Source: an uncultured Sphingorhabdus sp. | GTDB taxonomy: Bacteria > Pseudomonadota > Alphaproteobacteria > Sphingomonadales > Sphingomonadaceae | Assembly: GCA_947501885.1 (NCBI GenBank) | Contig: CANMXN010000001.1 | Coordinates: forward strand, 1,860,001 to 1,924,000 | Direction: 5' to 3' | Length of the DNA: 64,000 nucleotides | Shown: positions 5,905 through 47,174 of the stretch, piece after piece | Numbering within the stretch: the first letter of the stretch is position 1 | Layout of the letters: the number at the start of each line of letters is the position of its first letter | The notes under the pieces: generated by a model | The model's database searches: none | What the model saw: only the letters and a program-made list of their open reading frames with translations | Told to the model about the DNA's origin: nothing | Position numbers and translations under genes: made by a program

Positions 5905-6177
5905 ATGGATGGTGATGATTTTAATAAAGCGGCTAAGAATGGAGCGCAGCCATGCGCTTCTGACTATATGGATATGCTGGATGATGATTTATCTGAAGAA
6001 CAGAAATTAGAACTATTGGAAACACTCTTTAATATCATGAAGTCTTTCGTCATGATGGGTTATGGCATGGAAGCTGTGGATAGATTGGTTCAAGAGTTTC
6101 AAAAATGTAATGAAGATAATCTGCATCTGATAGATTCGGATAATAAAACCGCTCATAAGGAGTATGACCATGAATAA
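5905..6177 (+). CDS. Small hypothetical protein upstream of large serine recombinase
   Basis: A 90-residue acidic helical protein, read from the ATG at 5905 because AAGGAG ends 7 bases before it; the ATG at 5899 is only one base from that signal. The sequence (MDGDDFNKAAKNG...) has an acidic DDDLSEEQK stretch, then a hydrophobic helix rich in Met (about residues 43-58). No family is recognised. Its last codons overlap the start of the large serine recombinase, so the two are translationally coupled. It may assist the recombinase, for example as a directionality factor, but that is inference from position only. Confidence 0.55.
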   Translation: MDGDDFNKAAKNGAQPCASDYMDMLDDDLSEEQKLELLETLFNIMKSFVMMGYGMEAVDRLVQEFQKCNEDNLHLIDSDNKTAHKEYDHE

Positions 6178-7744: not shown

Positions 7745-7955
7745 GTCACGGTAAGTCACGCAAAGTCACTAAGTCTCTGATTCAGAAATAATTTCTTTGT
7801 ATTTCCAACTGTCCGAATACTGGGTTTTCACTGTATGGTGTTACCTATGTGTTACCTTTTTGGAATCGGACAGTCGAGTCAGAGCGTGTTATTTGAAAAA
7901 GGTAACACATCTTCCGCAAAGCGTTGATTTATCAGCGAAATTGGAGGAGTGCAAA
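7744..7955 (+). promoter_or_regulatory. Left-end integrase arm-type repeats and integrase leader
   Basis: AGTCAC occurs at 7744, 7754 and 7764, exactly 10 bp apart, just inside the left crossover core; this is the spacing of arm-type sites on one DNA face. Further in, GTGTTACC occurs at 7838 and 7849 and inverted at 7900-7907. Both direct copies lie inside a 9-bp inverted repeat, ACTGTCCGA (7808-7816) / TCGGACAGT (7866-7874). A 21-bp block at 7837-7857 recurs identically at 46667-46687 near the right end, in the same orientation and at nearly the same distance from the core. These are probable integrase/excisionase binding sites and the int promoter region. Confidence 0.6.
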
Positions 7956-9245
7956 ATGAAGCGTACTGTTAGGCTGACGTCTAAGGTCTTAAATACATAC
8001 CAACCTAATACCTCAGACCTCATCCTGTGGGATGAGTCCCCAAAAGGGTTTGGAGCGCGGTTTTATGCGAATGGAAAAATCGCCTTTATCGTCCAGCGTC
8101 GTATCGGGTCTGGGCGTGGCGCAAAGCAACGCAAAATCACCATCGGGCGTTATCCGGAAGTCAGTCTTGTCCAGGCCCGTAAGATGGCGCTTGATGCCAT
8201 TGCCAAGATGCAATTCGGCAATGATGTTGTAAGGCAGGAGCGCGACCGCATCGCAGCGGAGGAAGCTGCAAAAATTGCAGAGCTGACAGTTGCTGAACTG
8301 TGCGACCTGTGGCTTGAAACTGATGCCAAACGGTCGCGAATGCGTGGTCCCCGTTTTGGCACGCTGCGCAGTGAAGCCAATCTCAAATACAGTATTTCGC
8401 AGGTTGAACGACACATTAAACCGACCGTTGGCCACATTAAGATCAGCAAGCTGACAAGAAAAGATATTGAACGTATGCGCGATGATGTCTCGGTCGGCAA
8501 AACGGCGGTGGATGTGAAAACAAAGAAACATGGCCGCGCCAGGGTGACCGGCGGCGAAGGTACAGCGGGAAAAACCGTTCGCACCTTATGCAGTATCTTA
8601 AACTATGCCATTCGGGAAGAACTGCTGGCGGTTAATCCGGCCGCCGGTGTGCGGATACCTTCCTGCCGTAAAATCGAGCGCTATCTGACCAAGGCTGAAC
8701 AGGCCAGACTTGAAGCCGTCCTGTGCAATATGGAACAGGAAGCAAAATATCAGAAGGGTTGCGCCATCATCCGGGTGCTGATGCTGACCGGTTGCCGCCG
8801 TAATGAAATTGAATCGCTGAAATGGTCGGAGATCGACTTTGAACGCGGCTTTGTTTCCTTCGGAAAATCGAAAACCGGGGCCAAGGTGATACCTTTTTCC
8901 AGTGCTGCGCTGGACATCATCGCCGTGCAACCGCGCCTGATGAATTGCGATTATGTGTTCCCATCACTCAAGATAAACGACTGGTACAAGGGTTTGGCAA
9001 AAATCTGGGCCGAAGTCAGAAACCGCACCGGCCTCCACGATGTCCGTATTCATGATCTTCGGCATAATTTCGCGAGCATCCTTGCATCAAACGGCGCAAG
9101 CCTGCCGATGATCGGAGCCATGCTCGGTCACACCCAGGCGGAAACTACGGCGCGCTATGCCCATCTGACCAATCACACGCTTTCTAATCTGGCTGAACAG
9201 GCGGCGGAATTGCTAAGGGAACGTAGTTCGGAAAAACCGAGCTGA
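7956..9245 (+). CDS. int: Tyrosine recombinase (integrase) of the ICE
   Basis: A 429-residue integrase of the P4/tRNA-targeting type. The ATG at 7956 is chosen because GGAGGAG lies 6 bases upstream; the frame is open back to 7797 but the extra residues look non-coding. An N-terminal DUF4102-like arm-binding domain (about 5-95, with DESPKGFGARF and ITIGRYPEVSLVQAR) precedes a core-binding domain. The catalytic domain has Arg in TGCRRNEI (about 279), Lys in GKSKTGAK, HDLRHNF (about 365), LGHTQ (about 390) and the Tyr nucleophile in ARYAHL (about 400). It should recombine the anticodon-loop core with the same core on the circular element. It is the left-most gene, beside attL. Confidence 0.95.
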   Translation: MKRTVRLTSKVLNTYQPNTSDLILWDESPKGFGARFYANGKIAFIVQRRIGSGRGAKQRKITIGRYPEVSLVQARKMALDAIAKMQFGNDVVRQERDRIAAEEAAKIAELTVAELCDLWLETDAKRSRMRGPRFGTLRSEANLKYSISQVERHIKPTVGHIKISKLTRKDIERMRDDVSVGKTAVDVKTKKHGRARVTGGEGTAGKTVRTLCSILNYAIREELLAVNPAAGVRIPSCRKIERYLTKAEQARLEAVLCNMEQEAKYQKGCAIIRVLMLTGCRRNEIESLKWSEIDFERGFVSFGKSKTGAKVIPFSSAALDIIAVQPRLMNCDYVFPSLKINDWYKGLAKIWAEVRNRTGLHDVRIHDLRHNFASILASNGASLPMIGAMLGHTQAETTARYAHLTNHTLSNLAEQAAELLRERSSEKPS

Positions 9246-33479: not shown

Positions 33480-33662
33480 ATGACAACCGACATCATGACG
33501 ATCCGCGAAGTCGCTGAGTATCTCAAGATCGCGGAGAAGACAGCTTATCGCCTCGCGGCAGAGGGCGAGTTGCCAGGGTTCAAAGTGGGCGGGAGCTGGC
33601 GCTTCCGGCAGGCGGACATTGATAGGTGGATAGACAAGGGAGCAAAAAAGAATGACGACTGA
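33480..33662 (+). CDS. Excisionase-like helix-turn-helix protein, first gene of defence operon
   Basis: A 60-residue HTH_17/excisionase-type protein (MTIREVAEYLKIAEKTAYRLAAEGELPGFKVGGSWRFRQADIDRWI), with a good ribosome binding site. Proteins of this kind often head defence operons, where they probably regulate expression, although they are labelled excisionase. It could instead serve the element's excision, but it lies far from int and next to the defence genes. The vestigial reading frame at 33652 overlaps its last codons. Confidence 0.85.
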   Translation: MTTDIMTIREVAEYLKIAEKTAYRLAAEGELPGFKVGGSWRFRQADIDRWIDKGAKKNDD

Positions 33663-33765
33663 GTATCACGCAAAACTGTTTGCGCATGAGCTGAGCCGTC
33701 GGCATTCCGTTGGCGATTCAGAAAAACTCGCCAGCACCCATGATAGCTCGACCGATGGGGTGTAG
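33652..33765 (+). pseudogene. Vestigial N-terminus of a second SNF2-type helicase
   Basis: A 37-codon frame (start MTTEYHAKLFAHELSRRHSV, then GDSEKLAS...) overlaps the HTH stop by 11 bases, as a coupled gene would. It ends at TAG just before the real helicase start. From memory, the opening TEYHAKxxAHELxRR...DSxEKLA is the N-terminus of a different, ~1000-aa RapA-like helicase that is commonly found at this position with DUF4391, Mod and Res. It therefore looks like the stub of a replaced gene. It could still make a short peptide. Confidence 0.55.
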
Positions 33766-33767
33766 GA

Positions 33768-36700
33768 ATGCAAATCATTGACAACATAAACAACTTGCTA
33801 GGAGAAGATCTTCGCTCCAATCTAAATAAGGGATCGAAGCTCAAAATCGCGGCCTCTTGCTTTTCGATATTTGCGTTCCAAGCCTTAAAAAACGAGTTAG
33901 AAAAGATTGATGGTCTCGAGTTCATCTTCACAGCTCCGACTTTTGTCCCGGAGGGAGTAACTGATAAATTCAGGAAAGAACGAAGAGAATTTTTCATCCC
34001 CAAAGTTCAGCGCGAGCGTAATCTGTATGGATCAGAGTTTGAGATACAGCTTCGCAACAAGTTGATGCAGCGGGCGGTTGCGAGGGAGTGCGCTGAATGG
34101 ATACGCAAAAAGGTAGTATTTCGTTCAAACAAAACTCAAGCGCCTATGCAGCAATTTGTTTGCGTAGAGAATACCTCGAATCAGGTTGCTTATATGCCTG
34201 TGAACGGTTTTACGGCCGTCGACCTCGGCCTACAAAAAGGAAACGCTGTATCAAATATCGTCAATCGTTTAGATGGCGTGCCATACACAAACACCTATCT
34301 TGATCTTTTTAATCAAATCTGGGCTGATCCTGACAAGCTAGAGGATGTTACCGAGGCGATTTGCCAGCATATTGAGTCGGTCTATCAGGAGAACTCTCCG
34401 GAGCGGATTTATTTCCTGATCCTATACAACCTTTTCAATGAGTTTCTTGAAGAGATAGATGAGGACGTTCTTCCAAATGATCGTACCGGATATCTCGACA
34501 CTGCGGTATGGAACAAGTTGTTCAACTATCAGCGAGATGCCGCCACGGGTATCATCAATAAGCTGGAAACCTATAACGGCTGCATACTGGCGGATAGCGT
34601 TGGTTTAGGAAAGACATTTACAGCGCTCGCAGTCATCAAATATTACGAACTCAGAAATCGAGCTGTTCTGGTGCTGTGTCCCAAGAAGCTCGCCGATAAC
34701 TGGTTAAACTTTAACAGTAATCTCAAGACCAACCTGTTTGCCAAAGATCGTTTTAATTACGATGTGCTATGTCATACGGATCTGTCGAGAGTAAGCGGTG
34801 ACTCATTTGGCATTCCTCTAAATCGTGTAAATTGGGGAAACTATGATCTCGTCGTAATCGACGAATCTCACAATTTCCGCAACAACGACATCTACAAGGA
34901 TAAGGAAACTCGCTATCAGAAGCTCATGAACCAGGTCATACGCGCAGGCGTGAAGACCAAAGTTCTGATGCTGTCTGCAACACCCGTCAATAACAGATTT
35001 ACAGACCTTAGAAACCAACTTGCTCTCGCATATGAGGGTGAATCGGAAGCTCTAAGCGAGAAACTAAAAACCAGTTCCAGTGTCGAAGGGATTTTCCGGC
35101 GAGCGCAGACCGCATTTAACACTTGGTCAAAACTGCCGCCTGATGAAAGAACAGCATCCGCCATCTTGAAGATGCTGGATTTCGATTTTTTCGAACTCTT
35201 GGATAGCGTAACAATCGCGCGTTCGCGTAAACATATTGAGACCTTTTACGATACATCTGACATCGGGAAATTCCCGGAGAGAAAAAAGCCGCTATCATTT
35301 CGTTGTCCGTTGACCACGCGCACAGATGTTATGGGGCTAAACCAGATTGTTGCGCAGCTAACTATGCTGAAGCTCGCGGTTTATGCACCTCTTAGCTATA
35401 TATTGCCCAGTCGTGTCGCAAAATATGAAGCGCTCTATGACACTGAAGTCGGCGGTGGCAAAGGGCGGCTAAAGCAAGTTGACCGTGAGCGCAGCCTCCA
35501 AGCTCTAATGACTACCAATCTTCTCAAAAGACTTGAGAGCTCAGTTGAAGCATTCAGACTCACTTTAGGCGCACTTAAAGAAAACCTTACCGGAACCCTG
35601 GACGCGATTGCCGACTTTGAACGCTCAGGCGGCGCAATCGAAATAACCGACTACACGGCCAACCCTTCGGATTTCGATCCAGACGATGATGATTTGGGCG
35701 GCCTTGGAGACTTTACAGTTGGTAAGAAGGTTCAAATTAGTCTTTCAGATATGGATGTTCAGTCATGGCAGCATGATCTGAAAGCCGATCTCGAACTTAT
35801 CGACACGCTGCTGGCCTCAATGGAGATGATCCGCCCAGAAGATGACGCCAAACTTCAGCACCTGAAAGCCCATATCCACGATAAGATTGAAAACCCGATC
35901 AATGGCACTAACCGCAAGGTGCTCATTTTTACTGCTTTTGCTGATACGGCCAATTATCTCTACAACAACATTGCTGCTGACCTTCGTAAAAGCAATGCTC
36001 TGCATACCGCCAGAGTCTCAGGATCGGACACGCCTAAAACAACTATAAAGAAGGCCTACGACTTCCAATCAATCCTGACCTTGTTTTCGCCGCGTGCGAA
36101 AGAAAAACATCTCATTATGCCTGATGATGATAATGAGATCGACATCCTCATTGGTACTGATTGCATATCCGAAGGTCAGAATCTTCAAGATTGCGACTAT
36201 CTTATCAACTACGACATCCATTGGAATCCGGTCAGGATAATTCAGCGCTTTGGTCGGATTGACCGCATTGGTTCAACCAATGACCAAATTCAGCTTGTCA
36301 ATTACTGGCCAGACATCACGCTCGACGAATACATAAATCTCAAGGAGCGTGTCGAGAATAGAATGATGATCGCCGATGTGACCGCCACAGGCGATGATAA
36401 CGTGCTTACGGCGAAGAGTAGCGAGATTGCTTACCGTAAAGAGCAGTTAAAAAGGCTTCAGGATGAAGTGATCGAACTGGAGGATGTGAAGACAGGCGTC
36501 TCTATTACTGATCTTGGCTTGAATGACTTCCGCATGGACCTGCTGAATTATGTTAAGGAAAATGGCAATCTTCAGCACATGCCTAATGGCCTTCACGCTG
36601 TTGTGCCTGCTGACCTCGATATTGGGCTTCTGCCAGGCGCTATATTCGCGCTTCGTAACATTCATCACGGCGTAAGCATCAATCAGCAGAACCGCTTGCA

Positions 36701-37043
36701 CCCATATTATCTGGTTTACATTTCCAATGAAGGTGAAATTGTCGTCGACCACACCGAAGTAAAACGTCTACTCGATTTGGTTCGCACAAGTTGCAAAGGC
36801 CGCGCCGAACCTGTCGTGGGGGCTTGCAGTATTTTCAATGAGCGCACTGATGATGGCCGTAATATGGAGCAACAATCAGAGCTACTGAGTTCCGCCATTC
36901 GGTCAATGATTGACGTAAAAGATGAGAAAGACTTAGACAGCCTGTTTACAGGAGGCCGAACAACGGCACTTGTAAACACGATAGCCGGCCTTGATGATTT
37001 CGAGCTGATCGCTTTCTTGGTGATAGAAGGAGGCGGTTCATGA
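33768..37043 (+). CDS. SNF2/DEAD-type helicase with PLD-like N-terminal region
   Basis: A 1091-residue superfamily 2 helicase. The N-terminal ~250 residues (KLKIAASCFSIFAFQALKNEL...) resemble the PLD-like domain of such helicases, but I see no HxKx4D motif, so it is probably non-catalytic. Walker A is ADSVGLGKT (about 277-285), motif II VIDESHNFRN (about 363), motif III MLSATPVNN (about 402). The second RecA domain has QRFGRIDRIGS (about 825). It likely translocates on DNA and assists target search or remodelling for the RM system. Its stop overlaps the next start (ATGA). It replaces the vestigial helicase just upstream. Confidence 0.88.
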   Translation: MQIIDNINNLLGEDLRSNLNKGSKLKIAASCFSIFAFQALKNELEKIDGLEFIFTAPTFVPEGVTDKFRKERREFFIPKVQRERNLYGSEFEIQLRNKLMQRAVARECAEWIRKKVVFRSNKTQAPMQQFVCVENTSNQVAYMPVNGFTAVDLGLQKGNAVSNIVNRLDGVPYTNTYLDLFNQIWADPDKLEDVTEAICQHIESVYQENSPERIYFLILYNLFNEFLEEIDEDVLPNDRTGYLDTAVWNKLFNYQRDAATGIINKLETYNGCILADSVGLGKTFTALAVIKYYELRNRAVLVLCPKKLADNWLNFNSNLKTNLFAKDRFNYDVLCHTDLSRVSGDSFGIPLNRVNWGNYDLVVIDESHNFRNNDIYKDKETRYQKLMNQVIRAGVKTKVLMLSATPVNNRFTDLRNQLALAYEGESEALSEKLKTSSSVEGIFRRAQTAFNTWSKLPPDERTASAILKMLDFDFFELLDSVTIARSRKHIETFYDTSDIGKFPERKKPLSFRCPLTTRTDVMGLNQIVAQLTMLKLAVYAPLSYILPSRVAKYEALYDTEVGGGKGRLKQVDRERSLQALMTTNLLKRLESSVEAFRLTLGALKENLTGTLDAIADFERSGGAIEITDYTANPSDFDPDDDDLGGLGDFTVGKKVQISLSDMDVQSWQHDLKADLELIDTLLASMEMIRPEDDAKLQHLKAHIHDKIENPINGTNRKVLIFTAFADTANYLYNNIAADLRKSNALHTARVSGSDTPKTTIKKAYDFQSILTLFSPRAKEKHLIMPDDDNEIDILIGTDCISEGQNLQDCDYLINYDIHWNPVRIIQRFGRIDRIGSTNDQIQLVNYWPDITLDEYINLKERVENRMMIADVTATGDDNVLTAKSSEIAYRKEQLKRLQDEVIELEDVKTGVSITDLGLNDFRMDLLNYVKENGNLQHMPNGLHAVVPADLDIGLLPGAIFALRNIHHGVSINQQNRLHPYYLVYISNEGEIVVDHTEVKRLLDLVRTSCKGRAEPVVGACSIFNERTDDGRNMEQQSELLSSAIRSMIDVKDEKDLDSLFTGGRTTALVNTIAGLDDFELIAFLVIEGGGS

Positions 37044-37720
37044 CGGCTTTCTTTGAATACCCGCAAGGCGCTTCGTTCGGAAGGGTCTTACCCAAAACCA
37101 AGATTTACGAACACGCGAAGGCAGGCGCCAGATTAAAGCAAGCCTTTGTCGATCAGGTTGAGCAGATTGTCTGGCAATATAAGCTCGCCCCTGAGACCAT
37201 CAATCTTAGCGCAACGAAGTCGATCAAGGAAATACAGATATTCTGTATCAGGCTCCGAGGCGCGGAGTTGAGTGAAGATGTGTTATCAGCAATCGACAAG
37301 GCAATCGCGTTCCCGATCATCTTTGAGCTGACCCATGCGGGCAAGCGCAAGGTGATTGCATCCTACAAACGGGCCAATACAGCGGACAGCACCAAATGGG
37401 TTGTCAGTGAATATTTCAGCACTGACTGGGAAGCTGATGATTTGCCTCGGCAAGCGCTCCCGTCTGCCCTTAATCTTGGTGTGCTCTATGAGAAACTTCT
37501 GAGCGCACTCATTCCAACCTCCAAAACTGAAGAGCCTATGGCGCAACGTGTTGAGCGCATGGAGGCGATACGGGCGAAACAACGTGAAGCTGGGCGAATA
37601 AAGGCGCGTCTTGCCCGTGAAAAACAATTCAACAAACGTGTTGAGATTAACGCAGAGCTGCGAGGGGTAACAAAGGAGCTTGAAGTATTAAACGGGGGGA
37701 TAGATGGCAAAACTGAATGA
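37040..37720 (+). CDS. DUF4391 family protein
   Basis: A 226-residue protein matching DUF4391 in length and pattern (FFEYPQGASFGRVLPKTKIYEHA; FVDQVEQIVWQYKLAPETINL; AIPF-type IIFELTHAGKRKVIASYKR; C-terminal long basic coiled coil). Members occur with a helicase and type III Mod/Res genes, so they are thought to be part of the same defence apparatus; the biochemical role is not known. It overlaps both neighbours (4 and 17 bases). Confidence 0.88.
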   Translation: MTAFFEYPQGASFGRVLPKTKIYEHAKAGARLKQAFVDQVEQIVWQYKLAPETINLSATKSIKEIQIFCIRLRGAELSEDVLSAIDKAIAFPIIFELTHAGKRKVIASYKRANTADSTKWVVSEYFSTDWEADDLPRQALPSALNLGVLYEKLLSALIPTSKTEEPMAQRVERMEAIRAKQREAGRIKARLAREKQFNKRVEINAELRGVTKELEVLNGGIDGKTE

Positions 37721-37988
37721 GCCATATCAACTGGTCGAGGTTGAAAGTTATCGTCCAGATCATACAAGTGGATTACACGGGAAAATTCATATTCGCCCCT
37801 GTGCTGGTCAAGGCTTCGCCGAAAATTTGCATGTAGAATGTTCCAAGAAGCTCTCACGGGAATATCCTGTTGGCTCAAAGTTCCGCATCAGGGCAAAGTT
37901 AACTGACCGCGAAGGCGGAGGCGAATTTTTATACAGTTATTTCGGATGGAAATTTGAAGTCTTGTCGAAGGGGAAAGAACGAAAATGA
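37704..37988 (+). CDS. 94-aa protein of unknown function in defence operon
   Basis: A 94-residue protein (MAKLNEPYQLVEVESYRPDHTSG...). It appears strand-rich (GKIHIRPC, GFAENLHVEC, KFRIRAKLTDREGGGEFLYSYFGWKFEVL), suggesting a small beta-barrel such as an OB fold, which is inference. It overlaps DUF4391 at its start and mod at its end (ATGA), so it is under strong coupling. I do not recognise a family. Confidence 0.8.
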   Translation: MAKLNEPYQLVEVESYRPDHTSGLHGKIHIRPCAGQGFAENLHVECSKKLSREYPVGSKFRIRAKLTDREGGGEFLYSYFGWKFEVLSKGKERK

Positions 37989-39928
37989 AAAAAATGAAGA
38001 TGCACAGCCCCAATTTGACGGACGAAAACATCCTCAAGATTCGTGAGCTCTTTCCGGGGTGCGTGACAGAGGCCGAAGATCAAAATGGTAAGCTGCGTCT
38101 GGCAGTGGATTTTGACCAGCTCCGCCAAGAGCTGAGCGACCATATCATTGAAGGCCCGCAAGAGCGCTATCACCTCAACTGGCCGGGTAAACGCGAAGCG
38201 CTGGTCACCGCAAATGCCCCCATCGCCAAAACCCTTCGCCCTGTGCGAGAGGAAAGCGTGGATTTCGATACCACCAAAAACCTGTTTATCGAGGGCGATA
38301 ACCTTGAGGCTTTGAAACTGCTGCAAGAGACATATCTTGGCAAAGTCAAAATGATCTATATCGACCCGCCTTATAATACGGGTAATGACTTTGTGTATGA
38401 AGATGACTATTCTAAAAATACGGCAGAGTTTCTGAAACGCTCGAATCAAAAGGATGAATTTGGGAATAAACTCGTTGCTAATTCAGAAAGTAACGGCCGC
38501 TTTCACTCCGATTGGTTAGATATGATCTATCCTCGTTTGCGACTTGCTCGCAATCTTCTTGATGACGATGGCGTTCTGGTAGCCTCGATTGATGAGAATG
38601 AGATTGTTAATCTTCGGAAAGTTCTGGATGAGGTTTTTGGAGCAGGAAACCTTTTATTTCAAATAACCTTACTTTGCAATCCAAAGGGCCGGTCCCAAGA
38701 CAAGTTTGTAGCTAACTGCCATGAATACATTGTTGGGTATTCAAAAATTCAATTGAATAAAGGTGATCTCAATATCCCGAAGGATGACGAGGAGATTGCG
38801 AAAAATTACAAACTCAAAGATAAACGTGGAAGATATCGTGAATTAGAACTTCGAAACACGCATCGTGAATTTGGAAAACATAACAGAAAAAATCTCTATT
38901 ATCCTTTTTACGTGGACAGAGATGGAAGCGTTTTCCTTGACGAGGCTAATGGCCGCAAGACTGTATATCCTAATTGGGACGATGGTTTTGAGGGGTGTTG
39001 GACATGGGGAGTCGACAAAGCGCGCAATCAAATTGATGAACTTGTGGCCAAAGAAGTGAAAGGTAATTGGAAGGTATACAGAAAAAATTATGCTAAAGGG
39101 GACGATGGAGAAGCAACTAAGCAAGTAAAATCCATTTGGACGGAAAAGTGTTTTCACACAGAAAAAGGACAGTCTGCTTTTAATGAACTATTCGATACAA
39201 AGGAAAAGATTTTTCAGTCGCCTAAATCGGTAGATACAATAAAACAGTTGCTGTTAATGGCTTCGGAGAAAAGCTCAATTATTCTCGATTTTTTTGCTGG
39301 ATCTGGCACTACCGCCCACGCCGTTTTATCTCAAAACGCATCTGAGGGCGGTAATCGAAAGTTTATCCTTGTTCAGATAGATGAGTCCACTGCTTCAGAT
39401 TCCGAAGCAAATAAAGCAGGATATCCAACAGTTGCGGAGATTTGCAAAGAACGTATCCGCCGCGCGGGTCAGAAAGTTCTCGAAGGTGAATGTCATCCCG
39501 ATTGGAATAAGGATGTCGGCTTTCGTGTCCTGAAAATTGATACCAGCAATATGGCTGATGTGTATTACACACCCAATGCTGTAGATCAAAAAGACCTGCT
39601 CGCCAGTGTTGAGAATATCAAACCAGGCCGTGATAACCCTGAAGACCTGTTATTTCAGGTGTTACTTGATTGGGGTGTTGACCTGACACTGCCGATTGAA
39701 AAACGCGATATTCAGGGCAAATCTGTCTTCCTTGTGAATGAAGAGCCTTATGACCTTATCGCTTGCTTTGATAAAGGTGTGACCGAGGGTCTGGTCAAAG
39801 AACTTGCGAGCCATCAGCCTATGCGCATGGTGTTCCGTGACAATGGCTTTGCCTCTGACGCTGTGAAAATCAATGTTGAACAGATTTTCCGCCAGCTTTC
39901 TCCCGCAACCGACGTGAAGTCAATTTAG
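37985..39928 (+). CDS. mod: Type III restriction-modification DNA methyltransferase (Mod)
   Basis: Mod recognises the target and methylates adenine N6 on one strand; it also guides Res. The 647-residue protein has a conserved N-terminal stretch (HLNWPGKREALVTANAPIAKTLRP) and catalytic motif IV IYIDPPYNTGNDFVY (DPPY at about 127-130). A variable target-recognition region follows (about 215-400), and the SAM-binding motif I DFFAGSGTTAHAV is near 433-445. The IV-before-I order is the beta class, as in other type III Mod proteins. The recognition-region codons are more AT-rich than the flanks, as is usual where specificity is swapped. Confidence 0.94.
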   Translation: MKKMKMHSPNLTDENILKIRELFPGCVTEAEDQNGKLRLAVDFDQLRQELSDHIIEGPQERYHLNWPGKREALVTANAPIAKTLRPVREESVDFDTTKNLFIEGDNLEALKLLQETYLGKVKMIYIDPPYNTGNDFVYEDDYSKNTAEFLKRSNQKDEFGNKLVANSESNGRFHSDWLDMIYPRLRLARNLLDDDGVLVASIDENEIVNLRKVLDEVFGAGNLLFQITLLCNPKGRSQDKFVANCHEYIVGYSKIQLNKGDLNIPKDDEEIAKNYKLKDKRGRYRELELRNTHREFGKHNRKNLYYPFYVDRDGSVFLDEANGRKTVYPNWDDGFEGCWTWGVDKARNQIDELVAKEVKGNWKVYRKNYAKGDDGEATKQVKSIWTEKCFHTEKGQSAFNELFDTKEKIFQSPKSVDTIKQLLLMASEKSSIILDFFAGSGTTAHAVLSQNASEGGNRKFILVQIDESTASDSEANKAGYPTVAEICKERIRRAGQKVLEGECHPDWNKDVGFRVLKIDTSNMADVYYTPNAVDQKDLLASVENIKPGRDNPEDLLFQVLLDWGVDLTLPIEKRDIQGKSVFLVNEEPYDLIACFDKGVTEGLVKELASHQPMRMVFRDNGFASDAVKINVEQIFRQLSPATDVKSI

Positions 39929-39946
39929 GGTCAGCGGGGTTAGCTT

Positions 39947-42900
39947 ATGAAACTCAAGTTTAAGGTTCAGGACTATCAGACAAGTGCCGTAGAAGCTGTT
40001 GTGGATTGCTTTGCCGGGCAACCTTTCCGTAGCGGTCTGTCCTACCGCATGGACCCTGGCACAAAAAAGCAGGCTTCACTTGATGAACATGGGTTTAAGA
40101 ATGAAGACATACGCCTGACAGATGGGCAACTGCTAACAAATATCCAAAACGTGCAGAAGCGTCAGAACCTTACGCCGGCGCGTTCACTGATTGATTTCAC
40201 GGAGGTTGACCGCAAAGGCCAGGTTAAGCCGAAGGCGAAAAGCTACAAGCCGGGGGCCAAACTCAATCTCGATATTGAAATGGAAACCGGCACCGGCAAA
40301 ACCTATTGCTACATCAAGACCATTTTTGAGATGAATAAGCGATATGGCTGGTCAAAGTTCATCATCATGGTGCCGAGTATAGCCATTCGTGAAGGCGTTC
40401 AAAAATCTTTCCAGATTACGGCGGATCATTTTACCGAAGGCTACGGAAAGAAAGCACGGTTTTTCATATACAATTCCAAGAGTTTGCCTGAGCTGGAGAG
40501 TTTTTCTTCTGACGCTGGAATCAATGTGATGATTATCAATATTCAGGCGTTTAATGCTCGAGGTGCTGACAATCGCCGGATATATGATGAGCTGGACGAC
40601 TTTCAATCGCGTCGCCCGATTGACGTTATTAGCAAAAACCGGCCGATCCTCATCTTGGATGAACCTCAAAAGATGGAAGGCAAGGCCACGCTCGATGCTT
40701 TGCCAAAGTTCAATCCGCTAATGATCTTGCGATATTCTGCAACACACAAAACCAATCATCTCAAAGTTCATCGGCTGGATGCGCTAGACGCTTATAATCA
40801 GAAACTCGTAAAAAAAATTGCCGTTCGCGGAATCCAGACACGCGGCCTCGCTGGAACAAACGCCTATCTCTACCTCGAAGGCATCGACATCTCGAAAAAA
40901 GCGCCAGTCGCACGAATTGAGATGGAAGTGAAGCTGAAGTCTGGAGAAATAAAACGACAGATACGCCGACTCGAATTTGAACGTAACTTATATGATGAGT
41001 CCGGTGGTCTCGATCAATATCGCGGCTTCATCATTTCTCAAATCGATTATAATCAAGACACTGTCGAGTTCACCAATGGAGTTGTCTTGCAAGCTGGCGA
41101 GGCAACCGGTGATGTGAATGAGAAAGATATTCGACGTATCCAAATTCGCGAAACCATCAAAGCTCACTTTGATAAGGAAAAGCAACTTTTCTCTCAGGAC
41201 ATAAAAGTGCTTTCCTTATTTTTCATCGACGAAGTCGTGAAATACCGTGATTACGATCAGAATGACGACAAAGGCGATTATGCGCGTGTCTTCGAAGAGG
41301 AATACGCTCTCTTGAGAGAGGAATATCTCTCTGAGCTAGTGATAGATAATGAGCAATATCGGGAGTATCTGGCGGGCATCGAAGCAGGTGATACCCATAA
41401 AGGGTATTTTGCCATCGACAAAAAAACAAAGCAGATGAAAGACCCAAAAGCTGCAACGAGGGGTGAGAATGCAGGGCTTTCAGATGATGTGGATGCGTAT
41501 GACCTGATCCTTAAAGACAAAGAACGTCTTCTGGCGTTTCATGAACCAACGCGATTTATATTTTCTCACTCTGCACTCCGCGAGGGATGGGATAATCCTA
41601 ATGTTTTCGTCATGTGTATGCTTAAGCATAGCGATAACACGATTTCACGTCGCCAAGAGGTGGGTCGCGGGCTACGCCTCTCCGTTGACCAGCATGGCGA
41701 ACGTATGGACCTACCTGCTGTGGTTCACGACATAAATGTTCTGACCGTCATTGCCAGCGAGAGCTACAAAGACTTTGTATCAGGGCTTCAAACTGAGATT
41801 GCTGAGACATTGTCAGCCCGTCCTCGCAAAGCTAATGAAGAATATTTTGTAGGCAAGGTTGTCGAAACTTCGGATGGCCCAATCGAAGTTACGCCCCAAA
41901 TGGCAAAGCAGATATATCGCTATTTGTTGAAGAACGATTACACAGATGATGATGACAGCATTACGGAGGTTTATCATACAGCGAAGGATGCTGGCGAGTT
42001 GGCGAAGCTTCCAGATGAGCTAGAAGCATATACTGATCAGGTTTTTGAGCTGATCGACAGTGTTTTCGACGATAGTAAATTGCCAAAAATCGACGATGGA
42101 CGGAAACCAAAAACCAATCCACTCAACGATAATTTCGACAAGAAAGAGTTTCAGGAACTCTGGTCCCGGATTAACCGTAAAGCTGTATATCGCGTGGACT
42201 TCGACTCAAGGGAGCTGATTAAGAAAGCGATTAGCGCGTTAGATAGTCAATTACGCGTGACACCACTTCAATACACCGTTCAGACTGGCGAGCAACATGC
42301 AGCGGTCACTGACGATCAGTTGAAAACGGGTGACAGCTTCAAACTAACTGACACCACTACGGAAACAGGTGGCTCCGTCCACTCTGATGTAACCTATGAC
42401 CTGATAGGTAAAGTTGCCGAGAATGCCCATCTGACCCGCAAGACGATAGCGGAGATATTGTCTGGCATAGAGCCAGCAATATTTGAGCAGTTTCGAATGA
42501 ATCCGGAGCACTTTATCGCCGAAGCATCACGTTTGATAAGCGAACAGAAAGCGACGGCAATCATCGAGCAACTTTCCTACGATGAGGTGGAGGATCAGTT
42601 TACCACCGATGTATTTACCGCAGCGCAAACAGGTCAAGATTTCTCGCGCGCAACCCGAAAACTCAACAATCATGTCTATGATTATTGCGTTACGGATTCC
42701 GATGTTGAGAGGCGTTTTGTGGAAGAACTCGACACGAGCGCAGAGGTGGTTGTGTACGCAAAACTTCCGGGTGGATTCCTTATTCCTACACCAGTCGGTG
42801 ATTACAATCCTGATTGGGCGATTTCTTTTAAGCATGGCAGCGTTAAGCACGTCTATTTCGTAGCAGAGACAAAGGGCTCTATGTCCTCCATGAAGCTTCG

Positions 42901-43042
42901 AGAAATAGAGAAAACCAAGATTGAATGCGCACGAAAGTTCTTCACTGAGCTAAATGAGAAAATTATATCAGAGAAGGTCAAATACGACGTAGTCACTGAT
43001 TATGCCAAATTGATGGATTTGGTGAGCGAGGTGGCGGTGTGA
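39947..43042 (+). CDS. res: Type III restriction endonuclease subunit (Res)
   Basis: Res is the ATP-dependent translocase-nuclease partner of Mod. The 1031-residue protein has Walker A METGTGKT (about 111-118), motif [13 protein letters not shown] (about 236), motif [10 protein letters not shown], and motif [14 protein letters not shown] (about 565). A C-terminal PD-(D/E)xK nuclease has YNPDWAI (about 952) and FVAETKG (about 973). All parts look intact. It starts 18 bases after mod. Its TGA overlaps the GTG start of the SIR2 gene (GTGA). Confidence 0.94.
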
Positions 43043-44457
43043 GTGATTTCAGCAACTACAAACTTCTTTCTCCGGATTCTGCGAGCGGCAGCCAGGATTT
43101 ACTCGCAGGAAAAAACCAAGAAGAAGGTCTACGCCGTATTCAGGCACTGTTAGCAGATTGGCTTCGTATGGAAAGCGTAGTTGTTCTGACGGCTGCCGGC
43201 TGCTCGGTGGGTGCAGGTGGACGGCTTATGGCTGGTCCTGAACAAAATAACCTAGAGTGTTTGGTACTTGATGCGGTGGAACAATGTCAGCTATCCGAAG
43301 ATGCTAAAAAGATCATAAAGTGGAAAAAAGCTAACGATTTTGGGCAAGGCAATTTTGAAGATTGGCTTAGTTATTTGTTCAACGCATCCGGTCTCGCAAG
43401 TTCTGAAAACTCCCCAATAGATACGGTGGCTTGGAAAAGACATATTGAAGACGAGAATACTGAAGAAGATTCGGAGCCGCTAACATTAAGCAAAGAAGAT
43501 GAGCAGAATCTTTGCAAATGCCTTGAAAGAGCAATTTATGCGGAATGCGCGCTTCAACTAGACCGAAAAGAGTTATCCGGAGACTCGTCAGACGCCTCAT
43601 CGGGTCATATCCCGTTTTTGGCAAAACTTATTGCGCGCGATACAAATCTTGGACGCACACATCTATTCACTCTCAATTACGACACTTTGTTTGAGCAGGC
43701 TTTTGAAGAATTGGGAATCCAGTATTTTGATGGATTCTCAGGGAAAGCATCGGCGCGCTTCGATCCGGCTGTTTACGGGTTGGACATTTACTATCCGGGG
43801 GACGTAGCCGAAGGGCGCGTCCGCCGGTTCGATAAGTTTCTTCAATATTATAAACTCCACGGATCATTGCATTGGTATGTTGATGGGAGTGGGATCTATC
43901 GTGCGCAGCACAGGGATTTGACCTTTGCAGATGAATATCGGGCGAGTGACGCCGCTACAAAAGCCGTGAAACTTCAATCTGATGAATACAAACATATCGG
44001 GCCATTTGGAATCCTCCCAACATCGCAAAAATTTATGCAGACGCTTGATATGCCGTATGCACATTTATTTAGACTGTTCCATGCACGTTTGAACCAGCCG
44101 CAAACATTCCTGCTAGTGCTAGGCTACGGATTTGGTGACGACCATGTGAACCGGATTATTGAAACGGCCTTGATGAATCCTTCGCTTGTAATGCTGGTTG
44201 TCGAACCGAATCCGAACAGTCAGATAGTTGAACGAATTAGTCGATACCAAAATCTCGGCCAAAGAGCGTTCGTTCTGACAGAACGACTTGAAGAAGGCGA
44301 AAATTGCACATATCAGACTGCCACGTTTGCGGATTTTGCCCAAAACGTAATGCCAGATGTGCAATGGTTAGAAGATTTCAAACAGCTACGCAGGTTTGAG
44401 GAACAGATAAGAAAAGCTGAGGATACGTCGCCGAGTGAGCCAACGGGTGATACCTGA
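43039..44457 (+). CDS. SIR2-family protein (probable NADase effector of a Nezha-type system)
   Basis: A 472-residue SIR2 protein starting with GTG 43039 inside the res stop. The nucleotide-binding motif is [14 protein letters not shown] (about 47-61), the catalytic Asn lies in [11 protein letters not shown] (about 208-218) and the His in YKLHGSLHW (about 269-277). The [13 protein letters not shown] motif (about 360) is typical of defence SIR2 proteins. In SIR2-HerA (Nezha) systems this subunit degrades NAD+ or DNA on phage infection. It is followed at once by HerA (TGATG overlap). The tight link to type III RM genes is unusual. Confidence 0.9.
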
Positions 44458-46514
44458 TGGAGCAGCCGCGCGTTATAGGTCACGTGGTCTCTGTAAACGG
44501 TTTTCGCTTGAAAGTCGAACTATCCACTGAAGCAAAATCGTCATCCCGAGCCACACCTGATGGAGTGCAACGAGCCGTTGCAATCAACTCTTTTTTGACT
44601 TTCGATCTGGGTGCCGGCACCCATGCGATTGGTATTTTGAGTGATCTTGAAGCTAGAGAAAGTTATGATCCATCAACGAATGAAGAACTGTCTTTAGAAC
44701 TGACAAAACCTCGAAGGATTGCGGCAGTCCAACTCCTTGGAACGGTCAAACAATTCGGAAAGAGTGAATGGAAGTTTGATGCGGGTATTACCATTCTTCC
44801 AACGCTTGATACGCCTGCCGAGGTTGCTAATCCCGAAGTCCTTTCCGGGATTTTTGAACATCCCCCATTGAGAAACAAGCCAAAAGATTGGGGTGAAGGC
44901 GATTTTGATTTTCCGCTTGAGATTGGGCATCATTCGGGCGACGAAAATACAAAAATCAAGGCATCCTTTAACGACCTGTTTTCGAGACCATTGGCCGTTG
45001 TAGGCAATACAGGTTCGGGGAAGTCATACACCGTTGCCAGCCTTGTCCGAGGCATTCTTGAGAATGACAAAATGCAGCGTGATGATGGCGCTGACCCCCA
45101 CATCTTCATTCTCGATATTAACGGTGAGTATGCGAACGCATTTTTGAGCGACGATCAAGCAAACTACCAGAGAGAACCGAACAAACTTTACTTGAATGGA
45201 GAAGAGTTTGGACTGCCAACCTGGTTGATGAATGGTGAGGAAATCTGCGATTGGCTTCAAGCATCCGAGGCGACGCAGGAACCTGTATTGAAAGATTGGT
45301 GGGCGATTGCAAAAGCAAATCCGACTGATGCAGGCTCTTATGATCCGTTGCAAATTGCATTGCAAAAAATTGATCATGCTTTGGCATTCTTAGATGATAG
45401 CCATTTCGCTGCAGGAGGGAACTTCGAGCACCAAATAACATTAGCCCGTCAATATACTGAAGGTATTGATTGGGATGCATTCTGCAATGCAATTTCATGG
45501 ACGGATGATAATTATAAAAAAATTAGCAATGACAGAGAAGTTCGTGATCGCCTTGGACAGATTAGAACAGAGTTACTCACGAACATATCAGAACGACAAA
45601 ATGAAGGTGTGAACTTTGCAAAATCGGCAGATGCACCACGTTTCGTTCCAATCCATGAGTTTCGTGATCCAAATCTCGTGGACCGTTCCACCGATCAAGA
45701 CAGTAGCAAGAAAATAGATCAATATTTGCTGACGCTTAAACTAAGAATGCGCACTCGGCTCGATGATCGCAGGTGGCAGTCCTTTTTCAGTTTTGAGGAC
45801 CAAAATATCCGGTCATTTCAGGAGTGGATGCACAAACTTGGTGTCGGCCAAAAATCGGCTTCGCGGGTTTCTGTTCTTGATATGTCGATGTTGGCGTCGG
45901 AAGTTTTGCCGTTCGCTTGCGCTCTGCTGGGGCGTTTGTTTTTAGAGACGAGAGAAATGCTAAAACCAGACGTTCGGAGCCAATATCCTTGGTTGCTTAT
46001 CCTGGAAGAGGCTCATAACTACGCGCGACCTCCACGCACCCATGAAGACCGAGGACAAAGTCTTTCTCGTAGATCGTTTGAACGTGTTGCAAAAGAGGGC
46101 CGAAAGTTTGGCCTGTCACTTATTGTGGCCAGTCAACGGCCTAGCGAGATCAGCCCTACGATAATAAGCCAATGTGCAAATTTCTTCTCGCATCGGCTTC
46201 AGAACCCTGATGATATTGACCACTTCAGACGAATTATTCCCAAACAGGCCCAGAGGTTGCTAGATCAGGTAACAGTTCTAGCTGCCGGGGAGGCAATTCT
46301 ATTTGGTAGTGCCTTTCATATTCCAGCGCGCGCCCAAGTGCGATTGCCTTCAAAAGAACCTTGGAGTGCTACTGCTGCGCCTTATGTAGACTGGAGCAAA
46401 GACACAGTTTTCCCATTAGCAGATGTCGTTGATAGTTGGGGTATTTCTGAGTCAGAAAGCCAAGAACAGCAAAACGCGGGCGAACCCGACCTAGATGACG
46501 AGATACCATTTTAG
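44457..46514 (+). CDS. herA: HerA-like ATPase (DUF87), partner of SIR2
   Basis: A 685-residue hexameric translocase. An N-terminal HAS-barrel-like domain (IGHVVSVNGFRLKVEL... and a long beta-rich part to about 160) precedes the RecA core. Walker A is VVGNTGSGKSYT (about 181-192) and Walker B LLILEEAHNYAR (about 511-522). The sensor SQRPSEISPTIISQCANFFSHRL follows. Together with SIR2 it matches the Nezha two-gene defence type, in which HerA forms a ring with SIR2 subunits. It is the last gene of the operon and lies 65 bp from the element's tRNA. Confidence 0.92.
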   Translation: MEQPRVIGHVVSVNGFRLKVELSTEAKSSSRATPDGVQRAVAINSFLTFDLGAGTHAIGILSDLEARESYDPSTNEELSLELTKPRRIAAVQLLGTVKQFGKSEWKFDAGITILPTLDTPAEVANPEVLSGIFEHPPLRNKPKDWGEGDFDFPLEIGHHSGDENTKIKASFNDLFSRPLAVVGNTGSGKSYTVASLVRGILENDKMQRDDGADPHIFILDINGEYANAFLSDDQANYQREPNKLYLNGEEFGLPTWLMNGEEICDWLQASEATQEPVLKDWWAIAKANPTDAGSYDPLQIALQKIDHALAFLDDSHFAAGGNFEHQITLARQYTEGIDWDAFCNAISWTDDNYKKISNDREVRDRLGQIRTELLTNISERQNEGVNFAKSADAPRFVPIHEFRDPNLVDRSTDQDSSKKIDQYLLTLKLRMRTRLDDRRWQSFFSFEDQNIRSFQEWMHKLGVGQKSASRVSVLDMSMLASEVLPFACALLGRLFLETREMLKPDVRSQYPWLLILEEAHNYARPPRTHEDRGQSLSRRSFERVAKEGRKFGLSLIVASQRPSEISPTIISQCANFFSHRLQNPDDIDHFRRIIPKQAQRLLDQVTVLAAGEAILFGSAFHIPARAQVRLPSKEPWSATAAPYVDWSKDTVFPLADVVDSWGISESESQEQQNAGEPDLDDEIPF

Positions 46515-46578: not shown

Positions 46579-46655
46579 TGGCGGTCCCGGCGCGATTCGA
46601 ACGCGCGACCTTTCGCTTCGGAGGCGAATACTCTATCCAGCTGAGCTACGGGACC
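46579..46655 (-). tRNA. Complete tRNA-Arg(CCG) carried by the element
   Basis: On the minus strand it folds into a full cloverleaf: acceptor GGTCCCG/CGGGACC, D-arm GCTC/GAGT, anticodon stem TTCGC/GCGAA with loop CTCCGAA (anticodon CCG at 46621-46619), and T-arm GCGCG-TTCGAAT-CGCGC. The discriminator is G and CCA is encoded. Length is 77 nt. It lies inside the element, 138 bp from the right core, and its body differs from the disrupted host tRNA-Arg(CCG). It probably supplies the CGG-decoding tRNA lost by insertion. Confidence 0.95.
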
Positions 46656-46666
46656 GTTTGATAATC

Positions 46667-46687
46667 GGTGTTACCTATGTGTTACCT
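46667..46687 (+). repeat. Right-end copy of the 21-bp integrase-arm repeat
   Basis: This block (two GTGTTACC words 11 bp apart) is identical to 7837-7857 near the left end, in the same orientation. Its inner distance to the core (107 bp) nearly equals the left one (106 bp). It is 11 bp upstream of the element tRNA's 5' end. It is a probable integrase or excisionase binding site. Confidence 0.7.
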
Positions 46688-46794
46688 AGCGATTTGCAGC
46701 AAGTTATTTCCGAAATGCTGACTTTTTACAAACCTTTGAAACAGAACTCCTTTTTGTCTTCTTTTATCACCCAAATTCACGCTTGACATCCTGC

Positions 46795-46833
46795 TTCGGA
46801 GGGCAGCGCTCTATCCAGCTGAGCTATGGGTGC
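46795..46833 (-). pseudogene. 5' half of disrupted tRNA-Arg(CCG), right attachment site
   Basis: On the minus strand it reads acceptor GCACCCA, D-arm GCTC-AGCTGGATA-GAGC, stem CTGCC and loop CTCCGAA. It is then followed by GCAGGATGTC, which cannot pair correctly with the stem or supply a T-arm. The matching 3' half is at 7686-7730. The gene is thus broken, not restored, by the insertion. Confidence 0.93.
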
Positions 46834-47174
46834 TTGCGGCGGCGTAATTAGGCCGCCATTGGCACGGCCTTAGCAAAGCCTATTCGTGCGCGCTAGTATG
46901 TTTTTATGTAGATATTTGTGTTTATCATTTTGTCTCTCTGGGGCAAGAATGTTTCCATGAAAGACGCAGCAATGTTACAATATAAGCTGTATCGGAATTC
47001 TATTATTACAGCCTATCAAAGCTGATAATAGTGTTGATTATAAAAGCATCATATTTGCCAAAATACGCCATGAGCAACCATTGCAAGATACCCCAAAATA
47101 GCATAAAAGCGCCTCAATATTATATAGGAATCATCGGTGTAGACATAATATGCACCTAAGAATTGGAGATTATC
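46834..47174. other. Chromosomal intergenic region right of the element
   Basis: 341 bp, AT-rich, with the promoter of the split tRNA gene (reading left) and of the aldehyde dehydrogenase gene (reading right). A TTGGAG ribosome binding site is at 47163-47168. I see no gene or strong repeat. Confidence 0.45.

Follow-up and report, generated by a model that had tools for sequence, protein, structure and literature searches.

A SIR2–HerA cassette coupled to a type III restriction-modification operon in an uncultured Sphingorhabdus: a probable modular, two-layer defence unit on an integrative element

Gene content of the operon

In a 64,000-nucleotide stretch of contig CANMXN010000001.1 from an uncultured Sphingorhabdus sp. 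(assembly GCA_947501885.1, positions 1,860,001 to 1,924,000; hereafter the window), eight open reading frames (ORFs) on the plus strand, spanning 33480–46514, combine a type III restriction-modification (R-M) system with a SIR2–HerA pair. They encode, in order, a DNA-binding protein of the HTH_17 family, an SNF2-family helicase, a DUF4391 protein, a 94-amino-acid (94-aa) product, the R-M methyltransferase (Mod) and restriction subunit (Res), a SIR2-family predicted nicotinamide adenine dinucleotide (NAD) hydrolase, and a HerA-type ATPase (Table 1). Gene order and overlaps were read directly from the window sequence and agree throughout with those described in an earlier note on this DNA, whose gene names are also backed by Pfam, PADLOC, and a motif scan. 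Overlaps of 4 bp join the helicase gene to the DUF4391 gene (ATGA), the 94-aa ORF to Mod (ATGA), and Res to SIR2 (GTGA), while the DUF4391 gene and the 94-aa ORF overlap by 17 bp and SIR2 and HerA share a single base (TGATG). The intergenic gaps measure 105 bp between the HTH gene and the helicase gene and 18 bp between Mod and Res.

Both R-M subunits have the features of type III enzymes, which cleave DNA in an ATP-dependent manner from two inverted unmethylated sites. Mod includes the DPPY and FxGxG motifs and matches PADLOC MTase_III (717.4 bits), and Res combines superfamily 2 (SF2) helicase motifs with a C-terminal RE_endonuc domain (E 4.5e-34) and a match to PADLOC REase_III (1128 bits). 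A Res shortened or extended by fusion to SIR2 was discarded as a possibility, since its 1031 aa equal the length of Res in L112, a locus without SIR2–HerA (related loci are designated by L numbers throughout). In SIR2, the motif scan placed NYD at residue 213 and HG at residue 274, the Asn and His of which we take to be the catalytic residues. Its nearest PDB entry is 8j4u (E 1e-30), and the solved structures nearest to HerA are several HerA entries in PDB.

The helicase best matches PADLOC C3a139 ‘HKD+Snf2’ (417.7 bits, residues 2–1085); membership in Hma (helicase-methylase-ATPase) was set aside because the match to HmaA was only partial (94.8 bits, best stretch residues 580–838). For DUF4391, no relative was found among PDB sequences up to E 1, and the literature search turned up one paper. 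The 94-aa ORF matched no Pfam or PADLOC family at E ≤ 0.001 and, outside L002, nothing below E 0.3 in the loci searched, which leaves it as a candidate new payload or small regulator. HTH matches were likewise found in L002, L008, L121, and L123.

Recurrence of the composite

Among the loci seen, the complete helicase-to-HerA composite is known from the window and one other genome bin (L002), and in partial form from L004, both of which were reached through SIR2 and not through the Res searches described below. Because the whole gene order recurs in L002, with identical Res/SIR2 and SIR2/HerA junctions, the eight-gene arrangement is beyond chance; one fixed eight-gene system was nonetheless rejected, as the window and L002 alone are complete. 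Between these two, the helicase, DUF4391, the 94-aa ORF, Res, SIR2, and HerA are 83–93% identical, and Mod is 60% identical. The divergence of Mod (L002:4968-6854) is concentrated in its central part, with 85–92% identity over residues 1–120 and 82–100% over residues 481–647, compared to 15–35% per 40-residue step over residues 201–400. This looks like a replaced target-recognition part and would fit a switch of target site. L004 carries a 224-aa gene in an operon slot, and in L001 (L001:1-938) a decayed type III-B Res stands directly before long SIR2 and HerA reading frames.

The helicase–DUF4391–Mod–Res core and its cargo slots

We examined 54 loci of the Res family (35 window-type and 19 of a second branch). 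Searches with Res yielded matches in 33 of 385 genomes at the class level (E ≤ 0.001, weak helicase-only matches included), 39 of 398 genomes at the phylum level (E ≤ 1e-50), and 132 plasmid records, of which 60 were listed and 14 fetched; the window, L002, and L004 came from outside these searches. All four core genes lie within the fetched stretch of 36 of the 54 loci, with others cut short at contig ends. The core was found in Alpha-, Beta-, and Gammaproteobacteria, as well as on plasmids of Mycolicibacterium (L228) and Brochothrix (L230), the latter with a gene between helicase and Mod that is annotated as hypothetical and matches DUF4391 at 22% identity. SIR2–HerA followed Res in none of the 51 Res loci other than the window, L002, and L004 (47 of them with ≥400 bp of right flank). 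Other effectors accompany close relatives of the R-M genes, as in L112 (Res 84% identical to the window) and L113 (77%), and many further relatives carry none. The R-M half thus stands alone, given a full core in 36 of 54 loci and no SIR2 in the 51 others, and by its gene content helicase–DUF4391–Mod–Res reads as a widespread, complete, self-standing variant of type III R-M.

Additional genes occur at three positions of this core. An ORF of ≥150 aa was present in the DUF4391–Mod slot of 11/39 loci, in the Mod–Res slot of 18/49, and in the slot after Res of 20/50, the last being counted in loci with ≥400 bp of right flank (L117, L118, L202, and L216 lie outside this count). Three Pfam scans of 10 proteins each covered most of the large ORFs. 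Known defence families occupied the slot after Res in 14 of 50 loci, or 11 of 47 when the three SIR2–HerA loci are excluded, both counted within operons of this Res family alone. All ten payload proteins submitted to PADLOC (nine from the slot after Res and one from the DUF4391–Mod slot) matched families at E ≤ 1e-10, and no family was matched for the slot-after-Res ORFs of L194 and L205 or for the Mod–Res-slot ORF of L209. Slots inside the operon also hold transposases and family-less genes, next to the families listed in Table 1.

Payloads can differ between close relatives: L120 and L121 share 93% identity in Res and carry PDC-S46 and Drt3a, respectively. Across a Res tree of 48 rows, the payload changed at least 13 times, against 12–14 times in 200 shuffles (the tree omits L117, L118, and L128, with partial Res, L202 and L216, at contig edges, and L210, with a short read-out, and its state ‘none’ includes small or unscanned ORFs), so that Res kinship hardly predicts payload. 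Taken together, the varied defence families found after Res, the differing payloads of L120 and L121, and a number of payload changes inside the shuffle range indicate that this slot is exchangeable, within a core that appears to carry three cargo slots.

The SIR2–HerA cassette and its neighbours

A scan of 84,980 species genomes with exact peptides of the window SIR2, which favours nearer relatives, returned 114 relatives, of which 80 were kept. Of these, 53 are ≥50% identical to the window SIR2, and more distant relatives (L054–L080) are 26–33% identical. A HerA match adjoins SIR2 in 51 of these 53 loci (L048 and L052 being the exceptions). Plasmids searched with SIR2 gave a best match of 52%, and viral contigs searched with HerA gave none. 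The set studied comprised 58 loci including the window and four from other searches, 56 of which had upstream sequence (L015 and L045 were dropped). These loci are not independent, as SIR2 is identical in L028, L030, and L031, and likewise in L020 and L021.

At least 13 of the 56 loci have a same-strand R-M gene whose end lies directly before SIR2, and the genes concerned belong to several R-M types (Table 1). Recognition of upstream R-M genes relied on Pfam in 21 loci and, across all loci, on tblastn seeded with R-M genes taken from these loci; the number 13 is a lower bound, as the neighbours of about a dozen loci were left unscanned (e.g., L007, L014, L018, L023, L025, L029, L032, L035, L036, L050, and L053). 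Stop and start codons overlap by 4 bp at 10 of the 13 R-M/SIR2 junctions (two of the ten being a contig-edge fragment and a decayed gene), and the remaining three have gaps of 84 bp (L004), 107 bp (L034), and 42 bp (L044). Junctions were left unmeasured in L043, L045, L047, L049, and L050 (SIR2 starts unaligned) and in L016 (no start codon). On the other side of the cassette, a same-strand ORF of ≥100 aa occurs within 110 bp after HerA in 24 of 52 usable loci; ten of these 24 ORFs were scanned (a reverse transcriptase, a SIR2-like gene, and eight ORFs that matched no family), and no R-M gene was recognized directly after HerA in the 52 loci. The upstream and downstream frequencies differ with a Fisher p of 1.2e-4, uncorrected for kinship and unscanned ORFs. 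In L046, an MmeI-type set lies on the opposite strand.

Outside clade A, a supported near clade of 16 members (15 tree rows plus L050), toxin-antitoxin genes of the PIN, HigBA, or HipA type often precede SIR2 in place of R-M. A VapC-like PIN toxin, with its aligned end 2–11 bp away, was found before SIR2 in 13 loci (L017, L027, L028, L030, L031, L037–L041, L046, L048, and L052), a HigBA-type pair (Gp49, HTH_37), with its aligned end 72–76 bp away, in L022, L026, and L051, and HipA in one locus. A conserved partner of ~118 aa accompanies PIN in 12 of its 13 loci, forming a recurrent toxin-antitoxin plus SIR2–HerA unit. Neighbours that are neither R-M nor toxin-antitoxin include Schlafen AlbA_2 at a distance of 279 bp (L006), DUF2130 (L019), a weak GMT-wHTH match (L024), and RHH (L159). 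Within clade A, 6 of the 16 cassettes have no recognized upstream R-M (the upstream genes of L007 and L050 were outside the Pfam scans).

We next compared R-M partners with SIR2 kinship in a tree from which 9 of the 58 rows were left out (broken, short, or without a start). Among the ten R-M-linked rows, R-M type switches at least four times, where the minimum possible with four types is three, and the partner type is therefore in part inherited and in part switched. SIR2s behind III-A do not form one clade (approximately unbiased (AU) test, p 1.2e-6). In addition, the HerA tree pairs L004 with L008, and the SIR2 tree does not, indicating reassortment between the two genes of the cassette as well.

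An integrative element in tRNA-Arg

A ~39-kb integrative element (window 7731–46793) carries the operon as cargo on its right-hand side. A tRNA-Arg (CCG) gene that is whole in a same-genus genome (L244) is split in the window, which places the insertion in its anticodon region. The island brings a tRNA-Arg (CCG) of its own, which likely makes up for the split native gene, and encodes a tyrosine integrase beside its left end, a TrbI/VirB10-type conjugation gene, a ParB-type gene, and, next to the R-M operon, an ArdC-type anti-restriction gene. The G+C content is 0.50–0.56 from 8 to 34 kb and 0.44–0.48 across the operon. A pair of 21-bp direct repeats was considered as the island ends and set aside, since the ends are defined more sharply, at 7730 and 46794, by the split native tRNA-Arg. 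A large serine recombinase (6164–7744) lies immediately to the left of the island, and its frame extends into the 3' piece of this tRNA gene; in L244 the sequence adjoining the same tRNA reads like an integrase end (by eye). The tRNA-Arg site may be an integration hotspot.

Table 1. Features of the window, R-M genes found directly before SIR2, and occupants of the cargo slots. Numerical positions refer to the window unless a locus is named.
Feature	Location	Strand	Evidence or remarks
HTH_17 (excisionase-type) DNA-binding protein, likely operon regulator	33480..33662	+	Pfam HTH_17 E 4e-19
SNF2-family helicase, core gene 1	33768..37043	+	Pfam SNF2/Helicase_C; PADLOC; Walker A, DESH
DUF4391 protein, core gene 2, function unknown	37040..37720	+	Pfam E 3.6e-57; 21-row alignment
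94-aa ORF, unknown family, in DUF4391–Mod slot	37704..37988	+	ORF; 90% identical in L002
Type III methyltransferase (Mod), core gene 3	37985..39928	+	N6_N4_Mtase; DPPY residue 127; FAGSG residue 437
Type III restriction subunit (Res), core gene 4, full length	39947..43042	+	ResIII plus RE_endonuc; helicase motifs
SIR2-family predicted NAD hydrolase, starting within Res stop codon (GTGA)	43039..44457	+	SIR2_2; PADLOC PDLC04085 688.5 bits
HerA-type ATPase	44457..46514	+	HerA central domain; PADLOC PDLC04106 1010.9 bits; Walker A 183, EEAH 517
3' piece of split native tRNA-Arg (island left end)	7686..7730	-	100% over 45 bp to L244 tRNA-Arg
21-bp direct repeat, left copy (possible integrase arm site)	7837..7857	+	Repeat search
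Tyrosine integrase of island, beside left end	7956..9245	+	Phage_integrase E 3.4e-24; Arm-DNA-bind_3; ATG start
tRNA-Arg (CCG) brought by island	46579..46655	-	76% over 59 bp to native tRNA-Arg of same-genus genome
21-bp direct repeat, right copy	46667..46687	+	Repeat search
5' piece of split native tRNA-Arg (island right end)	46794..46830	-	Inside block 46794-46879, 92% over 86 bp to L244
R-M before SIR2: III-A	window, L002, L004
R-M before SIR2: III-B	L008, L123, L001 (decayed)
R-M before SIR2: ISP	L011, L042, L005 (fragment)
R-M before SIR2: MmeI-type methyltransferase-helicase-T5orf172 set	L003
R-M before SIR2: AlwI	L012
R-M before SIR2: XcyI	L034
R-M before SIR2: HsdS	L044
Slot after Res: SIR2–HerA	window, L002, L004
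Slot after Res: AAA_13/PDC-S06	L112, L219, L228
Slot after Res: giant SIR2	L113:2-6760	-	≥2253 aa; N-terminus matches pAgo-associated SIR2; 4-bp overlap with Res
Slot after Res: Drt3a	L121
Slot after Res: GajA	L201
Slot after Res: OLD-TOPRIM	L203		Pfam only
Slot after Res: GmrSD	L206
Slot after Res: Mrr	L196		Pfam only
Slot after Res: PDC-S11	L193
Slot after Res: PDC-S46	L120
Slot inside operon: Schlafen AlbA_2	L115		Same-size unscanned genes at same place in L114, L196, L225
Slot inside operon: GmrSD	L194
Slots inside operon: AAA_21 with DUF4276, also UvrD-like genes	L222
Slot inside operon: Fic	L202
Slot inside operon: RhuM	L205
Slot inside operon: zeta-toxin-like	L209
Slot inside operon: PDC-S46	L206

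Comparison with known systems

The SIR2–HerA pair shares with Nezha (GAO_19) a SIR2 gene akin to 8j4u directly followed by HerA, the Asn/His motifs (NYD, HG), the Walker A and B motifs of HerA, and full-length PADLOC matches to SIR2 and HerA. Unlike Nezha, the window SIR2 represents a separate subfamily, its gene overlaps the last gene of an R-M operon by 4 bp, and its glycine-rich motif is TAAGCS, compared to GAGAS in the 8j4u SIR2. For relatives of the cassette, infection-triggered NAD depletion by a SIR2–HerA complex is known (PMC11559045), and a Streptococcus thermophilus sir2/herA pair adjoining R-M genes conferred phage resistance when cloned alone (PMC11514479). The R-M half shares Mod and Res, with checked motifs, with type III systems, to which the window core adds the upstream SNF2 helicase and DUF4391, along with extra genes between and after the core genes.

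Restriction-linked genes exist in Campylobacter type I loci. A studied shutdown effector within an R-M operon is PrrC, the guard of the type IC system EcoprrI (PMC12707154, PMC3506569), and the window likewise has an effector gene in or ending an R-M operon. The two differ in R-M type (III instead of I) and in effector (a predicted NAD hydrolase instead of an anticodon nuclease), and the partner of the window effector is not fixed: with at least four type changes in ten rows and III-A SIR2s outside a single clade, the stable pairing with one R-M family expected of a PrrC-like guard was not found. A PrrC-like guard is kept latent by its R-M enzyme and released by anti-restriction factors, a form of control that would be conjectural for the window operon. 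The GmrSD-like TgvAB of Vibrio VPI-2, which has been shown to work (PMC11411939), is also a second defence embedded in an R-M operon, but its host operon is type I, its payload a modification-dependent endonuclease, and it includes no SIR2–HerA.

That R-M loci carry swapped toxins is already in print: Makarova et al. (2012) hypothesized that toxin-like domains, including Sir2, form part of many type I and III R-M loci and are repeatedly displaced (PMC3506569). DUF4391 does not occur in this work, and its accessible portions mention neither SIR2–HerA behind Res, nor slots in a single core, nor counts of partner switches. Capture of HerA by other defence systems has also been described, without SIR2 (PMC10853773). 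In a literature search that had most subscription journals outside its reach, and in the accessible portions of its sources, we found no description of a helicase–DUF4391–Mod–Res core with cargo slots and none of SIR2–HerA coupled to several R-M types.

Separate layers or one machine

We consider it reasonably probable that the operon is a two-layer, modular defence unit on an integrative element, in which co-regulated and co-inherited layers work separately and SIR2–HerA is an exchangeable tail cassette. The first layer would be a complete ATP-dependent type III R-M system, with Mod methylating self DNA and Res cutting unmodified DNA, probably helped in some manner by the helicase and DUF4391. 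In the second, an NAD-consuming SIR2 complexed with the HerA ATPase would sense infection on its own and stop the cell by NAD loss. Placed in the exchangeable slot after Res, SIR2–HerA would be translated from the shared message by stop/start coupling, and the two layers together would cover phages missed by either alone. Gene order, overlaps, core conservation, payload turnover, partner switching, and motifs were read from sequence, and we infer the activities, co-regulation, separate triggering, and complementarity of the layers. We favour separate working because each half is also found alone, because the R-M partners are unrelated in sequence, and because L001 keeps its cassette beside a broken Res and the S. 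thermophilus pair protected alone (PMC11514479).

The earlier note had held that the coupling of Res to SIR2 is more than coincidence, and the presence of R-M directly before SIR2 in at least 13 of 56 loci, with none recognized after HerA in 52, bears this out. Defence genes do cluster generally, and the exact composite is rare (complete in two loci). Yet the same asymmetry (Fisher p 1.2e-4, with 10 of 24 downstream ORFs scanned and loci that are not independent), the 4-bp overlaps at 10 of 13 R-M junctions, and the recurrence with unrelated R-M types make chance adjacency inside a defence island highly improbable. By contrast, the proposal of a single dedicated system did not survive: the composite is complete in two loci alone, L112 and L113 carry other effectors, SIR2–HerA has switched R-M type at least four times, stands behind toxin-antitoxin pairs in many genomes, and persists beside the decayed Res of L001. 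Counting co-occurrence, as the note had suggested, did find the SIR2–HerA/Mod-Res pair outside the window (L002, L004), in a pattern of modular layering and not of a fixed joint machine. Its further idea, that the NADase would step in as a backup once restriction fails, is hypothetical.

Several observations weigh against separately working, exchangeable layers. The composite is 83–93% conserved (Mod 60%) between the window and the gammaproteobacterial bin L002, and therefore travels as a unit. R-M lies directly upstream in 10 of 16 clade-A loci vs 3 of 40 others (Fisher p 4.4e-5, loci not independent), so that clade A may have a specific tie to R-M, and the recurrence of so tight a 4-bp overlap at unrelated junctions may point beyond co-expression. 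As for the slot after Res, no ORF of ≥150 aa is present in 30 of 50 loci, and some of its occupants fall outside defence, among them an M1 peptidase (L198), a secretion gene (L204), and transposase-type genes (L200, a transposase-type nuclease, L203, and L218). The autonomy of the window's own SIR2–HerA cassette is also something that we infer.

SIR2, AAA_13, and Drt3a are regarded as shutdown-type families, and their presence among the slot payloads, together with the enrichment of clade A behind several R-M types with the same overlap, would suit a guard that idles while restriction works. Inhibition or saturation of the R-M enzyme, or cutting by it, would trigger such a guard via a signal shared by R-M types (DNA ends, stalled translocation, or anti-restriction proteins), in the way that PrrC serves EcoprrI, its studied precedent (PMC12707154, PMC3506569). 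We nonetheless regard a guard as unlikely, although worth serious attention: the R-M partners are unrelated proteins, which makes a specific contact with SIR2–HerA unlikely, cassettes without recognized R-M exist and others stand behind toxin-antitoxin pairs, Res has decayed in L001, and the S. thermophilus pair works alone beside its R-M genes (PMC11514479). A direct trigger from Res to SIR2 is possible but unsupported. In a related and likewise doubtful scenario, clade-A SIR2–HerA would be a general R-M follow-up effector. It would respond to a by-product shared by types I, II, ISP, and III (e.g., DNA ends or stalled ATP-driven enzymes) and spend NAD when cutting starts without clearing the phage, while stop/start coupling would set how much killer is made per cutter. 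Finally, a SIR2–HerA without a strong promoter of its own could persist, with no synergy, behind reliably transcribed and hard-to-lose modules such as R-M, VapC-like PIN, HigBA, or HipA. Self-maintaining modules are indeed often found upstream (R-M in 13 of 56 loci, PIN in 13, HigBA in 3, HipA in 1), and no R-M was recognized directly after HerA in the 52 usable loci (10 of 24 ORFs scanned). Promoter capture alone, however, leaves unexplained the preference of one clade for R-M and of the other for toxin-antitoxin pairs. Many of the remaining payloads found in this slot of the R-M family are defence genes, as would suit selection for layering, and we deem promoter capture rather improbable.

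Implications for defence gene discovery

The modular, two-layer reading makes countable the general claim that R-M loci collect suicide genes, with one core that has three cargo slots and one cassette that has many R-M hosts. If the follow-up-effector scenario were true, clade-A SIR2–HerA would be a plug-and-play guard serving types I, II, ISP, and III alike. Natural matched pairs, in which the same core carries different payloads or the same payload sits behind different cores, allow a direct test of whether the layers communicate or merely share a message. The modular arrangement also suggests a search strategy, in which unknown genes in the slots of helicase–DUF4391–Mod–Res operons, such as the 94-aa ORF of the window or the 224-aa gene of L004, are candidate new defence genes.

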